DNA of 64,000 nt, taken from contig JADLHW010000045.1 in NCBI GenBank assembly GCA_020848615.1, positions 1 through 64,000 on the forward strand, read 5' to 3'. Of this stretch, positions 6,913-13,007 are shown piece after piece. The position numbers and the translations under genes were made by a program. The stretch is from Thermoleophilia bacterium (GTDB lineage Bacteria; Actinomycetota; Thermoleophilia; Miltoncostaeales; Miltoncostaeaceae). The notes under the pieces were generated by a model. It did not search any database, was not told the DNA's origin, and saw nothing but the letters and a program-made list of their open reading frames with translations. Within the stretch, counting starts at the first letter, position 1. Each line of letters opens with the position of its first letter.

Positions 6913-7251
6913 TCAGTCGTCGGGCAGCCGGAAACCCACGTGGACGGACTCCGGGGTCTCGGCCAGCAGCTCCAGGGTCCGGATGTCGGAGATCCGGACG
7001 ATCAGCTGGGTGGGCGTCACCCACAGCCCCGGCGCCGACTGCACGAGCTCGGTGAGGTCCGCCGGGATGGGGGACAGGGTGACCATCCCACCGCCCGGCT
7101 CCGGCTCCATCGCGGCGAGCAGGAAGTTCTCGCCGTTGGCCAGCGTGGCGCGCACAGCGGGGGTCTCGCAGTCCCGGCTGGCGGCGAAGGCCCGCACCCG
7201 GTCCGAGATCGCGGCGATGAACGCCCGCTCGCCGTCCAGATCCACCGTCAT
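6913..7251 (-). CDS. Small protein of unknown function
   Basis: 112 residues, not recognised. It is predicted to be a soluble alpha/beta protein with one Cys and no signal peptide or membrane span. Its ATG overlaps the stop codon of the LLM-ligase fusion gene (ATGA at 7248-7251), so it is the last gene of that minus-strand operon and probably linked to the function of the fusion enzyme. The sequence gives no hint of catalysis. Confidence 0.7.
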   Translation of the reverse strand: MTVDLDGERAFIAAISDRVRAFAASRDCETPAVRATLANGENFLLAAMEPEPGGGMVTLSPIPADLTELVQSAPGLWVTPTQLIVRISDIRTLELLAETPESVHVGFRLPDD

Positions 7252-9680
7252 GCCGTGCTCCCTCCCATCCGCAGTGACCGGCGGTCGAGTTTGCCGGACG
7301 GCAGGCGCGGCAGGGCGTCGAGCACCGTCACCGCCTGCGGGGCCGCATACGGCGCCAGCGCGCGGGCCACGTGGCGGCGCAGCTCATCGGCGAGGCCGTC
7401 GCCCGGCACGCCGTCCACCACGACCCAGGCGTGCACGCGCACCAGGCCGGCGTCGCCTGGGACGCCCGCCACCGCGGCCTCCCGCACGGCGGGATGGGCG
7501 AGCAGGCACGCCTCCACCTCGCCGGGGCTCACCCAGCGCGCATCGACCTTGAACAGGTCGTCCACGCGCCCCACGTGCCGGTACACGCCGCCCTCCTGCA
7601 CCAGCACGTCACCCATCCGGATCCAGTCACCGTGCACCAGGTCCCTCGTGAGCTCCGACCGGCGCCAGTACCCGGAGGTGTTCGACGCGCTGCGGATCCA
7701 CAGGCGCCCCGGCTCCCCGTCGCCGGTGACCCGGCCGTCGGGGTCCCGCAGCTCCACCTCCACGCCGGGCACGACCGTGCCCAGCGTCCCGCCGCCGCGT
7801 TCCCCGGGGCGCGTGGAGATGAGCACGTTGCTGCACTCCGAGCAGCCCAGTCCCTCCAGGATGCGCAGCCCCGTGAGGTCCTCCAGCCGGGCGGCCACGG
7901 GGGCGGGCAGGCCGTCGCCGGACGCCACGGCCAGGCGCACGCCGTCGAGCGCCCCGGGCATGGGATGGCGTGACAGGAACTCGGCGAGCTGCGCCCAGAA
8001 CGTCGGCACGCCCGTGAGGACGTTCACGCCGTGGTCGCGCACGACGCCGAGCGTGGTGCGCGGGTTCGGGCGCCCCCCGCTGAGCACGCAGGTCGCGCCG
8101 CGTCCCAGCACCCGGAAGAAGCCGTTGCCGAACCCCAGCGAGGTGAACAGCCGCGCGGCGGAATGGCACCGGTCGCCGGGACCCAGGCCCAGCACGTGGG
8201 CGGCGTACGTGTCGATGCCGGCCGCCATGTCCCGGTGGGCGTGCATCGCCCCCTTGGGCCGGCCCGTGGAGCCGGAGGAGTACACGAGGTACGCGAGGTC
8301 GTCGGAGTGCACCGCGGTGACCGGGCGCGACGGGCCGTCGTCCAGCAGGGCGGCCGGCGCGGACCGCCAGCCGGAGGCGTCCACCCCGGGCTCGGCGAGC
8401 ACCAGCGCCGGCTCGCAGTCGTCGAGGACGAGCCTCACCCGGTCGGCGGGGCTGGCGGGGTCGACGGGCACGGCGACGGCCCCCAGCGACGCGGTGCCCA
8501 GGAAGCCGGCGAGCCACGGCCGGCCGTCCCGCAGGGCGATCGCCACCCGGTCGCCGCGCCGCACCCCGGCCCCGGCGAGCGCCCCCGCGGCGCGGGCCGT
8601 GGCCGCCGACAGGTCGTCGTACGTCCACTCGCCGTCCTCGTCCACGGCCGCCACCCGGCCGCCGGCGCCGGCCTCCCGGTGCCGCTCGACCAGCAGCCGC
8701 ACCAGGTTGTCGCGCGGCGAGACGTCCGGGAGCGCGGGGAGCGCGGGCTGCGGGGCGGGTGCGGGCAGCAGGGCGTCCGCGAGGGCGTCGAACGCCTCGG
8801 CGGGCACCCGCGACGGCAGCGCGAGGATCGCGTCGGTGCCGCCCGCCGCGGCGTGCGCCGCGAGCACGTCACGCACCTCGTCCGGGGTGCCCACGATCCC
8901 GCCCCGGGCCCGCAGCCAGCGCAGCACCCCGGCGGGGCTGGAGCCCAGCTCGCGCGCCTCGCCGGCCAGCCAGCCGCGCAGCTCGGCGTCCGACCCGCCC
9001 ACCAGGCAGAACGTGTAGAGCGCGGCCGTCGGACGGGGCCGGCCCGCGGCCTCGGCGGCCTCGGCGGCGATGCGGATGCGGTCGCCGAACGCCGCCGGGT
9101 CGGTCCAGGCCGCCACGATGCCGTCGGCGGCGCGCCCGGCCAGGCGCAGCAGCACGGGGCCGTGGGCGGCGAGCCACACCGGGGGGCCTCCGGGGACCGC
9201 GGGGGCCGGGCGGTTGGGGGCGTCCGCGAGCACGCCCTCCAGGGTGGCGCCGTCCGGGTTGGCGCGCATGGCGTTCACCACCGCCAGCGCACGCTTCACG
9301 CCGGCGGTGCGCTCACCCGGGGTGCCCATCGGGAACCCGTAGGCGATGTGCTCCGGGCGGTCCGACCCCGTGCCGAGGCCCAGGATCATGCGTCCGCCGG
9401 ACATGACGTCCACGACGGTGGCCATCTTCGCGGCCAGCTGCGGCGGGCGGTACGCGGCGCACGCCACCGCGACGCCCAGCCGGGCCCGGGTCGTCACCTG
9501 GGCCAGGGCGGCGAGCGTCGTGAACGCCTCGAACACCGGCTCGCACTTCAGCCGGCCGGGGGACTGCAGATGGTCGTTCACCCACAGGGCGTCCACGCCG
9601 CGGCGGTCGAGGCGCTCCGCCACCGCCCGAAGGCCCGCCCAGTCGCCCCCGTACTGCGGGACCCGGACCCCGATGTTCAT
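7248..9680 (-). CDS. Fusion of LLM flavin monooxygenase and aryl-CoA ligase
   Basis: 810 residues in one uninterrupted frame. Residues 1-303 are a luciferase-like (LLM, F420- or FMN-dependent) oxidoreductase: VDALWVNDHL, AVACAAYRPP, SGGRMILGLGTGS and the C-terminal GTPDEVRDVLAAH. A Pro/Ala-rich linker (304-325) leads to an adenylate-forming ligase of the benzoate-CoA ligase type (326-810): A3 motif YSSGSTGRPKG (467-477), YWRRSELT, HVGRVDDLFKV and the catalytic Lys797 in LPSGKLDR. It would make an acyl- or aryl-CoA through an adenylate. Whether the flavin domain oxidises the same ligand is inference. The start is the ATG 4 nt after the LytR_C gene. Confidence 0.85.
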   Translation of the reverse strand: MNIGVRVPQYGGDWAGLRAVAERLDRRGVDALWVNDHLQSPGRLKCEPVFEAFTTLAALAQVTTRARLGVAVACAAYRPPQLAAKMATVVDVMSGGRMILGLGTGSDRPEHIAYGFPMGTPGERTAGVKRALAVVNAMRANPDGATLEGVLADAPNRPAPAVPGGPPVWLAAHGPVLLRLAGRAADGIVAAWTDPAAFGDRIRIAAEAAEAAGRPRPTAALYTFCLVGGSDAELRGWLAGEARELGSSPAGVLRWLRARGGIVGTPDEVRDVLAAHAAAGGTDAILALPSRVPAEAFDALADALLPAPAPQPALPALPDVSPRDNLVRLLVERHREAGAGGRVAAVDEDGEWTYDDLSAATARAAGALAGAGVRRGDRVAIALRDGRPWLAGFLGTASLGAVAVPVDPASPADRVRLVLDDCEPALVLAEPGVDASGWRSAPAALLDDGPSRPVTAVHSDDLAYLVYSSGSTGRPKGAMHAHRDMAAGIDTYAAHVLGLGPGDRCHSAARLFTSLGFGNGFFRVLGRGATCVLSGGRPNPRTTLGVVRDHGVNVLTGVPTFWAQLAEFLSRHPMPGALDGVRLAVASGDGLPAPVAARLEDLTGLRILEGLGCSECSNVLISTRPGERGGGTLGTVVPGVEVELRDPDGRVTGDGEPGRLWIRSASNTSGYWRRSELTRDLVHGDWIRMGDVLVQEGGVYRHVGRVDDLFKVDARWVSPGEVEACLLAHPAVREAAVAGVPGDAGLVRVHAWVVVDGVPGDGLADELRRHVARALAPYAAPQAVTVLDALPRLPSGKLDRRSLRMGGSTA

Positions 9681-9684
9681 GCGA

Positions 9685-10197
9685 TCAGCCTGGACCGAGG
9701 ACCACGACCACGTCCACCCCCGCGGGGGCGGCGGTCGCGATGGCACCACCGGTGGGCAGCGCCTGCACGGTGGTGTACCCCAGGTCCTTCGCCACCCGCT
9801 GCGCCGCGGGCCGCTTGCCGGTCCGGAAGTACACGATGGTGGGGCCGGCCTGGTCCGCGACGTTGCCCGTCGCGGGGGTGGGATAGCCCAGTCCGGCGGC
9901 CCGCGTGGCGGTCTGCGCCGCGAGCCCGTTGATCTTGGATCCGTTGAGCACGGCGAGCGTGACCTTCGCCGGGGTGATCTCGGCCGGCGGCGTGGGCGCC
10001 GTGGCCGTGGTGGTGCGCGGCTTGGTGGTGGCGGGCGCCGGCGCCTCGACGGTCGGCAATGCCTGCGCCGAGCCGCCGTCGCCCCGTGTGAGCCACCCGA
10101 CGACAAACCCGCCGACAAGGCATGCAAGGCCCACCGCGATGAACAGCGGCAGTGCGACGGGGGCTTTGCGGGAGGCGGGCTCGGGGTTCGTCGACAT
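9685..10197 (-). CDS. Membrane protein with LytR C-terminal domain
   Basis: 170 residues: a short cytoplasmic N-terminus, one membrane span (about 15-38), a Thr/Pro/Ala-rich linker, and a LytR_C domain (about 75-170: VTLAVLNGSKINGLA, then TIVYFRTGKRPAAQRVA). The LytR-CpsA-Psr transferase core is missing. Such stand-alone LytR_C proteins are common in actinomycetotes and are thought to act at the cell wall. TACCAT on the minus strand (10207-10212) lies 9 nt before the ATG. It is first gene of an operon with the LLM-ligase fusion. Confidence 0.8.
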   Translation of the reverse strand: MSTNPEPASRKAPVALPLFIAVGLACLVGGFVVGWLTRGDGGSAQALPTVEAPAPATTKPRTTTATAPTPPAEITPAKVTLAVLNGSKINGLAAQTATRAAGLGYPTPATGNVADQAGPTIVYFRTGKRPAAQRVAKDLGYTTVQALPTGGAIATAAPAGVDVVVVLGPG

Positions 10198-10287
10198 GCG
10201 CTCGCGATGGTAACGGGACCCCCGGTCGGCTCGTCCCGCGACCGCCGGGCGGCGCCCTGCGGCCCTTCACGACGCCGGAACGCGTGG

Positions 10288-10351
10288 TAACGTGCGTCCT
10301 GGTCGCCCCTTCAGGACGACGCCCTGCTCCGCTCGCAGCCCTCCGAGCAGG
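10288..10351 (+). promoter_or_regulatory. Candidate promoter and structured 5' leader of the helicase gene
   Basis: TAACGT at 10288-10293 is a possible -10 box. It is followed by two perfect hairpins in the would-be leader: GTCCTG 10296-10301 with CAGGAC 10312-10317, and CCTGCTC 10323-10329 with GAGCAGG 10345-10351. The leader to the ATG at 10440 would be about 140 nt, unlike the leaderless genes nearby. Confidence 0.35.
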
Positions 10352-10439
10352 CGTCACGCACGCGGCCCGAGGCGGATTCCACCCCTCGCCTGACCACGCC
10401 TACCCGCCGAACCCCCATACCGGCGGGACTCGTGACTGG

Positions 10440-13007
10440 ATGCCGGAAGGACTGCATTCCACGACCGAAGTGAGAGTTCCCACGTCGCCGGCCGACGCCC
10501 TCCGGGCAGCGCTGGACGACCCGTCGCGCGCCTGGCCCGACGTCGTCCTGCGCCCGCACCAGCTGGAGGCGCTCGACGAGCTGGCGGTGCGCCTGGGCCA
10601 TGGCGTCCAGCGCACATGGGTCGACTCCCCCACGGGCTCCGGGAAGACCGTGATGTTCTGCGCCCTCGCCTCCGCCCTGGGCGGGTCGGCGACGGTGCTG
10701 GTGCCCCGCCGGAACCTGGCCGAGCAGACGATCGCCCAGTTCAAGCGGCACTTCCCGTCCGTGCACGTCCACGCCGAGGGCCCCGAGGCGGTCGGCAGGC
10801 CGGGCGTGGCGGTGAGCACCTACCAGGCGGCCCTGCGCCACCAGGACAAGATGGACTGGGAGTCCCTCGACCTGCTCATCTGCGACGAGGCGCACACCGC
10901 CCTGGGCGCCCAGACCCGGTTGCTCCTCGACCGTGCCGTGAACGCCGTCGTGGTGGGCTTCACGGCGACGGGCAGCACCACCACCGGCCACGTCGAGCAG
11001 ATCTTCGGGCCCGTGGCCACCACCCTGGACCGGGGATCCGCCATCGAGCGGGGGATCCTCTGCCCGCTGCGCTCCCTCCGGGTCGAGCGCGCCGTGGACC
11101 TGTCCGACGTCGCCCGGGTGCGCGGCGACTTCGAGCAGGGCAGCCTGGGACGCGCCCTCGACAAGGCCCTGTGGCACAAGGCGTGCGCCGACGTGTGGGC
11201 CGAGCACTTCCAGCCGCTCGGGCTCGCCGGCGTCGCCTACACGGCCACGGTCGCCCAGGCGCACAACCTCGCCGACGAGCTCAGCCAGCGCGGCGTGAAG
11301 GCCGCCGCCGTGTCCGGGCAGACGCCGGCCCGCGATCTGCAGATGACGCTGAAGATGTTCGGCGAGGGCTTCATCGACGTGCTGTGCAACGCGGACCTGC
11401 TCACCGAGGGGTGGGACGAGACACGCGCGTCCGTGGTGATGCACCTGGCCCCCACCACCTCCGAGCGCGTGTTCGTGCAGCGCCTGGGCCGCGTGATGCG
11501 CCCCGCCCCCGACAAGGAGGCGGTGTCCGTCGAATTCCTGCCCAAGGGCGACCCGATGGGCGTGAAGACCAGCCACGAGATCTTCGGGATGGGCTGGTAC
11601 AAGCCGCTGGGCCGCGTCGCGGGACCGCCCGACGCCGGCGACGAGCGCCACCGGCTCGCGAAGGCCGCCAAGCTGCTCGCCGAACGCGAGGGGAACGTCT
11701 CCCAGCTGGTGAACACCGGCGCCGACCACCACGACATCGCCCGCGGCTTCGCCGACGGCGGGTGGCGGGAGGCGGACGCCGGGCAGCTGCGCGGCATCCT
11801 GGTGGAGGAGTGGATCGAGGCGGCCGCCTCGGAGGCCACCTGCCAGGATGTCGCCGACCGCGTCGCCGCCGGGCTGCCGTTCCAGGCGGCCCTCGCCTGG
11901 TGGGGCCTGTCCGGCGTGCTCGAGCGCCACGCCCGCGACGGCGCCGACCAGCCCATGTGGCGCGAATGGGCGATGGCGCTGGTGGTGCAGCCCGACCTGC
12001 GCATGGCGCTGCCCGACGACGTGCCGCGCAAGGTGCTCGACCGGCTGCGGATGACCGCCCGGGAGCGCCTGCGGTCGCTGTGGTACCACGCCAACGGCGC
12101 CGGCAAGTGGGACCGCATCACGGCCCTGGAGCAGCTGGGCCGTTCGGGCGACCGGCGCCGCCGCTGGAGCGCGCTGGAGGAGGCGTCCGCATGGGCGCCC
12201 GCCTGGGCCTGGGACGTGTCCCGCGGCCTCGCCGAGATCCACCGCCCCGGCCGCAACCAGGAGGCCGCGCGCATCGCCGCGTGGGAGGCCCGCCACCTCA
12301 TCGCCAACGGCGGCGAGGTGAACGTGATCGCCATGTGGCTGAAGGCCGCGGGAGGCCCGCCCCCCGAGCCCGTCCCGCCCGCCGAGGGCGAGCCGCCGCT
12401 GCGGCTCGGGCAGGCCGCGCGCCTCACCGTGGTGCTCGGCCCCGGCGACGTCCCGACCCGGCCCGAGCACGTGCGCCTGGCGGCGCGCGCCGCCGCCGCC
12501 TGCGGGGGATGGGCGCAGCTGCGCGGGTTCCTCGACTCCCTGGACTTCTCCACCGCCGATGCCCGCCGCGCCCTGCGGGCCGCCGTTGGCGCCACCCAGC
12601 CCAAGGCGCTGCTGTCGCGCCGCGCCTGGAATGCCCTGCGCACGAGGTTCCCGAGGCTGCCCGGCGCGGAGGAGGTCGGCATCGGCGAGGGCGGCGGGAA
12701 GCGACGTGAGGGCGAGGCCGGCGAGAACGGCACGGCCGCGACCCGGTCCCGCCGCCGCCGTCGCCGCCGTCTGAGCACCGCGATGGGGGACGGGACGTCC
12801 GCGAACGGCACCGCCTCGGCCGAGTCCGAGGCGCCCGCCGCGGAGGCCGCGGCGACCGGGTCCGATGGCGGCGAGGCCCCCGCCGAGGGTCCCGCGTCGT
12901 CACGTCCGCGCAGGCGCCGCAGGCGCCGCCGCTCCCGCGGGGCCGGCGGTGGCGGGGGTGCTCCCGACGCCCAGGGCGGCGACCCGCAGGATCCGGCGGA
13001 GGGCTAG
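10440..13007 (+). CDS. SF2 DEAD/DEAH-box helicase with basic disordered tail
   Basis: About 855 residues. The N-terminal ATPase lobe has Walker A SPTGSGKT (about 62-69), DEAH (149-152) and motif III-like TATGS. The second lobe ends in VQRLGRVMRP (motif VI). The architecture is of the ResIII/type III restriction-helicase kind. A middle region rich in Trp and Ala helices is unassigned. The last ~110 residues are low complexity with two blocks of consecutive arginines (RSRRRRRRR and RPRRRRRRRRS) separated by an acidic Ala/Glu-rich stretch, suited to RNA or DNA binding. The start could also be GTG 10470. No methylase or specificity gene is adjacent, so a restriction role is not supported. Confidence 0.85.
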   Translation: MPEGLHSTTEVRVPTSPADALRAALDDPSRAWPDVVLRPHQLEALDELAVRLGHGVQRTWVDSPTGSGKTVMFCALASALGGSATVLVPRRNLAEQTIAQFKRHFPSVHVHAEGPEAVGRPGVAVSTYQAALRHQDKMDWESLDLLICDEAHTALGAQTRLLLDRAVNAVVVGFTATGSTTTGHVEQIFGPVATTLDRGSAIERGILCPLRSLRVERAVDLSDVARVRGDFEQGSLGRALDKALWHKACADVWAEHFQPLGLAGVAYTATVAQAHNLADELSQRGVKAAAVSGQTPARDLQMTLKMFGEGFIDVLCNADLLTEGWDETRASVVMHLAPTTSERVFVQRLGRVMRPAPDKEAVSVEFLPKGDPMGVKTSHEIFGMGWYKPLGRVAGPPDAGDERHRLAKAAKLLAEREGNVSQLVNTGADHHDIARGFADGGWREADAGQLRGILVEEWIEAAASEATCQDVADRVAAGLPFQAALAWWGLSGVLERHARDGADQPMWREWAMALVVQPDLRMALPDDVPRKVLDRLRMTARERLRSLWYHANGAGKWDRITALEQLGRSGDRRRRWSALEEASAWAPAWAWDVSRGLAEIHRPGRNQEAARIAAWEARHLIANGGEVNVIAMWLKAAGGPPPEPVPPAEGEPPLRLGQAARLTVVLGPGDVPTRPEHVRLAARAAAACGGWAQLRGFLDSLDFSTADARRALRAAVGATQPKALLSRRAWNALRTRFPRLPGAEEVGIGEGGGKRREGEAGENGTAATRSRRRRRRRLSTAMGDGTSANGTASAESEAPAAEAAATGSDGGEAPAEGPASSRPRRRRRRRRSRGAGGGGGAPDAQGGDPQDPAEG

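Follow-up and report, generated by a model that had tools for sequence, protein, structure and literature searches.

Enzymes of the luciferase-like monooxygenase (LLM) class use either FMN or F420 as a cofactor, and some F420-dependent reductases also bind FMN (PMC6279831). LLM domains are also embedded in PKS/NRPS chains, for example in module 9 of the palmerolide PKS-NRPS, where their proposed role is the oxidation of an acyl group held as a thioester (PMC8739492). In the benzoate-CoA ligase BadA, the residues Y228, G327, S328, T329, H333 and I334 form the cavity that takes up benzoate (PMC7277991). A 64,000-nucleotide stretch of DNA from a member of the Miltoncostaeaceae, hereafter called the window, carries a gene in which an LLM domain and an adenylate-forming ligase are joined in one polypeptide. 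The gene is best read as encoding a new bifunctional architecture that combines two known classes of enzyme. The original prediction, made from the letters of the window alone, did not know this combination as a characterised enzyme. Consistently, no published fusion of an LLM with a benzoate-CoA ligase was found in the literature, with most subscription journals lying outside the scope of the search.

The fused gene lies at 7248-9680 on the minus strand, with its ATG at 9680 and its TGA at 7250-7248, and encodes 810 amino acids. The protein has three Pfam domains only, all of them above their cut-offs: Bac_luciferase at residues 10-238 (2e-37; 129.6 bits against a cut-off of 27.9), AMP-binding at residues 337-672 (1.8e-71; 241 bits) and AMP-binding_C at residues 721-797 (1.5e-16; 61 bits). 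Pfam, the structural model and conservation assign residues 1-303 to the LLM domain (8772-9680, minus strand), and Pfam, PDB sequence matches and Foldseek assign residues 326-810 to an adenylate-forming acyl/aryl-CoA ligase domain (7251-8705, minus strand). The two are connected by a Pro/Ala-rich flexible linker of residues 304-325 (8706-8771, minus strand), which is hypervariable in length across orthologues, with roughly 15 to 45 residues and no conservation of its sequence. The original prediction was exact in placing one open frame with two enzymes at these positions, leaving only the minus strand unstated. Its domain limits are matched by Pfam, by the alignment and by the low confidence of the AlphaFold2 model around residues 305-320, and the A3 motif and catalytic lysine that it called intact (S468-K476 and Lys797) are both there, with little or no variation.

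The LLM half is modelled as a confident TIM barrel (pLDDT 94), and this fold together with the above-cut-off domain match makes it a member of PF00296. W33, N35, D36, H37, G101, G103, G105, S106, E110 and H111 are invariant across Miltoncostaeaceae, and H37 of the invariant WxNDH motif (9570-9572, minus strand) aligns with the DH of the FGD family. The TIM barrel, WxNDH, GxGxGS and the size of about 300 residues are common to this half and the LLM oxidoreductases of TIGR03560/LLHT (Mer, FGD and the Rv1855c family). However, it stays below every listed LLM subfamily cut-off, including that of TIGR03560, is a clade of its own in the tree, is kept in genomes with no detected F420 biosynthesis, and is followed by a C-terminal ligase. 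With the LLM proteins embedded in NRPS/PKS systems (MupA/Atu3671, TIGR04020) the fusion has in common that an LLM stands on one chain with acyl-activating machinery. It differs from them in consisting of two domains, with a ligase of the benzoate-CoA-ligase type and without carrier, condensation or ketosynthase domains, and its TIGR04020 match, 24.6 bits where the cut-off is 244, places it outside the NRPS-embedded LLM family. The PKS/NRPS LLM domains are the nearest precedent for an LLM beside acyl-activating machinery, one that lacks the architecture of the fusion.

The ligase half belongs to the adenylate-forming ligases, having the A3 P-loop SSGSTGxPK, the core GxGxxE, the A7 Asp, the A8 Arg and the A10 Lys. 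The A3 motif SSGSTGRPK of residues 468-476 is encoded at 8253-8279 and the catalytic lysine K797 (A10, PSGK) at 7290-7292, both on the minus strand. Across about 40 homologues, S468-G473, P475-K476, G610, G612, E615, D691, R705 and K797 are invariant, R474 alone varying within A3. The best PDB sequence matches are the benzoate-CoA ligases 2v7b and 4eat, and a Foldseek search gives 4rlf first, with benzoate- and anthranilate-CoA ligases as the best fold matches. Because the motifs in both halves of the fusion are invariant, both halves look catalytically competent.

The reading that is favoured, with moderate confidence, is a bifunctional enzyme of Miltoncostaeaceae in which the ligase activates an acid and a flavin-dependent barrel, with FMN more probable than F420, acts on the same molecule. 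The C-terminal half would convert a carboxylic acid and ATP into an acyl-adenylate and then, most likely, into a CoA thioester. The N-terminal TIM barrel would perform flavin-dependent redox chemistry, by oxygenation or by hydride transfer, and would do so on that same molecule, either prior to its activation or afterwards. The flexible linker would keep the two active sites close to each other. The chemistry predicted for each domain follows from its enzyme family. The fusion, co-retention and co-loss of the two halves suggest that they act on one substrate, and channelling of this substrate between the domains is plausible. More tentatively, an FMN-dependent barrel might oxidise the acid as its adenylate or CoA thioester on the tethered ligase, for example by hydroxylation or oxidative cleavage, which would make the fusion the start of a route for acid degradation or modification that has no described counterpart.

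The sample consisted of 42 genomes of Miltoncostaeaceae, including the window's own. Both halves are in one frame in 30 of these, the 29 other fusions being about 52-65% identical to the window fusion. A 31st, in G001, is 86% identical and is open through both halves to residue 696, where the contig ends. The fusion is cut by contig ends or partial in 5 further genomes, the halves are separate genes in 3 (G006, G007 and G016), and the LLM-ligase is absent from 3. The fused protein is nearly universal in the family. In G007 and G016, the halves form a two-gene operon of adjacent genes with 4-nt overlaps (GTGA and ATGA). These pairs have been relocated to two different neighbourhoods of generic context, aconitase and GGDEF genes in one and malate synthase and methylmalonyl-CoA mutase genes in the other, and no genes common to both were found. 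In G006, the halves are about 4 kb apart. At this locus (L055; G006:C10:80000-99000), they have the conserved helicase between them, an arrangement that would fit duplication of the locus followed by loss of one half from each copy. Trees of the two domains give the same main subclades. The separate-gene forms are nested among the fused forms in the LLM tree, and their position is open in the ligase tree; they may be fissions or may represent the pre-fusion state. A second, diverged copy of the fusion (L044, on G011:C71; 53% identity) is present in a genome with 7% contamination and is either a paralogue or a contaminant.

The gene for a LytR_C-domain protein, recognised by Pfam, lies at 9685-10197 on the same minus strand, 4 nt upstream of the fusion, and is its conserved upstream neighbour in most Miltoncostaeaceae genomes. 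A DEAD/ResIII helicase in divergent orientation (10143-13004 on the plus strand, as open-frame limits) is the syntenic anchor of the locus. The LytR_C gene remains at the locus where the pair has been relocated or the fusion lost. In G016, it still stands beside the helicase after relocation of the pair. In the near-complete genome of G002, the whole fused gene is cleanly gone, and the LytR_C and abhydrolase genes are 43 nt apart; its sister G020 has the 2.4-kb fusion at this site. Because the halves are retained or lost jointly, and the pair is kept after separation and relocated without LytR_C, the most economical interpretation is mutual dependence of the halves, with LytR_C as a neighbour and no required partner. 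The small 112-residue open frame at 6913-7251 on the minus strand, whose ATG overlaps the stop codon of the fusion (ATGA), had been proposed as a partner. It has a coding-like composition, and searches of the sister species and of orthologous loci found no homologue of it. It is rejected as a conserved partner. No pathway genes were found at the fusion locus, where the neighbours are the helicase, LytR_C, MoxR, abhydrolase and APH genes, and the syntenic neighbours may reflect vertical inheritance only.

Conservation, joint loss and retention of the separated pair support a coupled function of the two halves. Coupling of a looser kind would also be conceivable, the fusion serving as a device for co-expression or stoichiometry within one pathway, with no substrate passing between the active sites. 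Such a device would tolerate the hypervariable length and sequence of the linker, the separate genes of G006 and the plain operons of G007 and G016. However, fusion is the predominant state (at least 30 of the 42 genomes), even among streamlined genomes of 1.5-2 Mb, and G002 lost the whole gene as a unit. This explanation is considered possible, and a bifunctional enzyme acting on one molecule is retained as the preferred reading.

The cofactor of the LLM half had been predicted to be either a flavin or F420. The LLM half is not confined to genomes in which F420 is made: CofH and CofD are both undetected in 14 of the 42 genomes, most of them drafts, and all 14 keep the LLM-ligase. Of these, G012 is a single 3.37-Mb contig that is 99% complete, and G010, G004, G026, G015 and G005 are 93-98% complete. 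Conversely, the 3 genomes without the LLM-ligase have both CofH and CofD. A second LLM (L092), run as a positive control for tracking F420, is also present in genomes without detected F420 genes and so could not serve as one. The F420 genes of G025 are located outside its chromosome-sized contig, so a second replicon that failed to assemble could be missed elsewhere. Because the LLM-ligase persists in the 14 genomes and the 3 genomes lacking it have the F420 genes, FMN is more likely than F420, and a requirement of the LLM half for F420 is unlikely; the flavin alternative of the original prediction is thereby favoured and the F420 alternative weakened. The nearest folds to the model are F420-dependent Mer and FGD, and then also FMN monooxygenases; judged by the model, the LLM half is as close to F420-enzyme folds as to FMN ones, which speaks against FMN. 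An F420-dependent reductase or dehydrogenase working on the CoA-activated acid would agree with Mer and FGD as the best PDB matches, with the presence of CofH and CofD in the window's own genome, and with TIGR03560 F420_Rv1855c as the best NCBIfam match. However, this match has 134 bits against a cut-off of 231, and the 14 genomes that keep the LLM-ligase without detected CofH and CofD include the single-contig one. Such an enzyme is regarded as rather improbable, and FMN is taken as the presumptive cofactor. F420 biosynthesis is patchy in Miltoncostaeaceae: most genomes have it, but it is undetected in G012, G010, G004, G015, G005, G019, G026 and others, some of them near-complete, and LLM genes persist there.

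The substrate of the ligase half was approached through its likeness to benzoate-CoA ligases (TIGR02262; BadA, 4eat; B. xenovorans BCL, 2v7b), with which it has the fold, A3, GxGxxE, the hinge region and the catalytic Lys in common. However, the ligase half scores 335 bits against the TIGR02262 cut-off of 375, stands behind an LLM barrel, and differs in its pocket. Y228, G327, S328, T329, H333 and I334 of BadA align to L515, G612, C613, S614, N618 and V619 of the fusion; only the Gly is kept. Because five of the six pocket residues are replaced, the benzoate pocket is not preserved. Across homologues, C613 and S614 are invariant, L515 is nearly so, and N618 is found in 90% or more, and this conserved non-BadA pocket suggests one shared but different substrate among the orthologues. 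PaaA/PaaC and BoxB were not detected in any of the 42 Miltoncostaeaceae genomes, and a context of Paa or Box aryl-CoA degradation is rejected. Because most benzoate-pocket residues differ and Paa/Box ring-oxidation genes are not detectable in the family, benzoate is an unlikely substrate, and the benzoate-type specificity of the original prediction did not hold. The substrate is presumably bulkier or more polar than benzoate.

The acceptor of the acyl group is presumed to be CoA. The A8 region reads KVDA (A714) in place of the KVSG of benzoate-CoA ligases, and with A714 in place of Gly, CoA as the acceptor is not certain. A ligase half that makes no CoA ester, and instead transfers the acyl group to an amine or a carrier protein or goes no further than the adenylate, would be compatible with this change and with the occurrence of the adenylate-forming fold in amide synthetases such as McbA (6sq8). 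It is unlikely, however, as CoA ligases are the closest relatives by sequence and by fold and no carrier-protein domain is found in the fusion by Pfam. A CoA thioester is retained as the predicted product.

Outside Miltoncostaeaceae, the LLM-ligase architecture was found neither in the other families among 399 genomes of the class nor around the 20 closest LLM relatives from the phylum, and no plasmid records cover both domains. A scan of 84,980 species with exact peptide patterns, which misses distant cases, returned apparent Miltoncostaeaceae members only. In these searches the architecture is thus confined to the one family. Two public MAG records (L063 and L076) titled Bifidobacterium breve contain Miltoncostaeaceae sequence and are apparently mislabelled. 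Looser relatives of the ligase half outside the family (36-39% identity) adjoin genes for aromatic amino acid lyase, aldehyde dehydrogenase, enoyl-CoA hydratase and PaaX, that is, aromatic or organic-acid catabolic neighbourhoods. A separate LLM gene lies near the ligase relative at 2 of 20 such loci (L119 and L127), directly upstream of it in L119. Because LLM genes are abundant, this adjacency is hardly above chance and is rejected as strong evidence. In another family of the class, L127:9295-14272 holds a run of a PaaX regulator, an LLM, a MaoC-like protein, a creatininase-like protein and a ligase of the benzoate-CoA-ligase type. This operon-like run may be a catabolic operon that has no published description.

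The GC content of the fusion region is about 77%, at which chance long frames are common on both strands, and an open frame of 692 residues is also present on the strand opposite the fusion. The length of the frame is therefore no proof, and homology is needed to decide. Read in the register of the fusion (7248-9680), the plus strand is broken by stops. Between the window fusion and that of G001, codon position 3 holds most changes, and dN/dS is about 0.17 in the LLM domain, 0.18 in the linker and 0.16 in the ligase; purifying selection acts on both halves. On the evidence of its homologues, the 810-residue fusion is confirmed as a genuine gene, and a stop or frameshift between the domains is refuted by the 30 genomes with both halves in one frame. 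An artefact of frameshift, misassembly or a chance open frame, which the frequency of long chance frames at very high GC might suggest, is ruled out by the recurrence of the architecture in about 30 genomes that were assembled independently, and by purifying selection across the domain junction.

The fusion ties together two large enzyme classes, each with numerous uncharacterised members, and the substrate of one half would point to that of the other. The persistence of its LLM without detected F420 biosynthesis genes calls for caution in inferring F420 dependence from LLM family names. Retention in streamlined genomes of 1.5-2 Mb indicates that the fusion is probably central in this poorly studied actinobacterial family.
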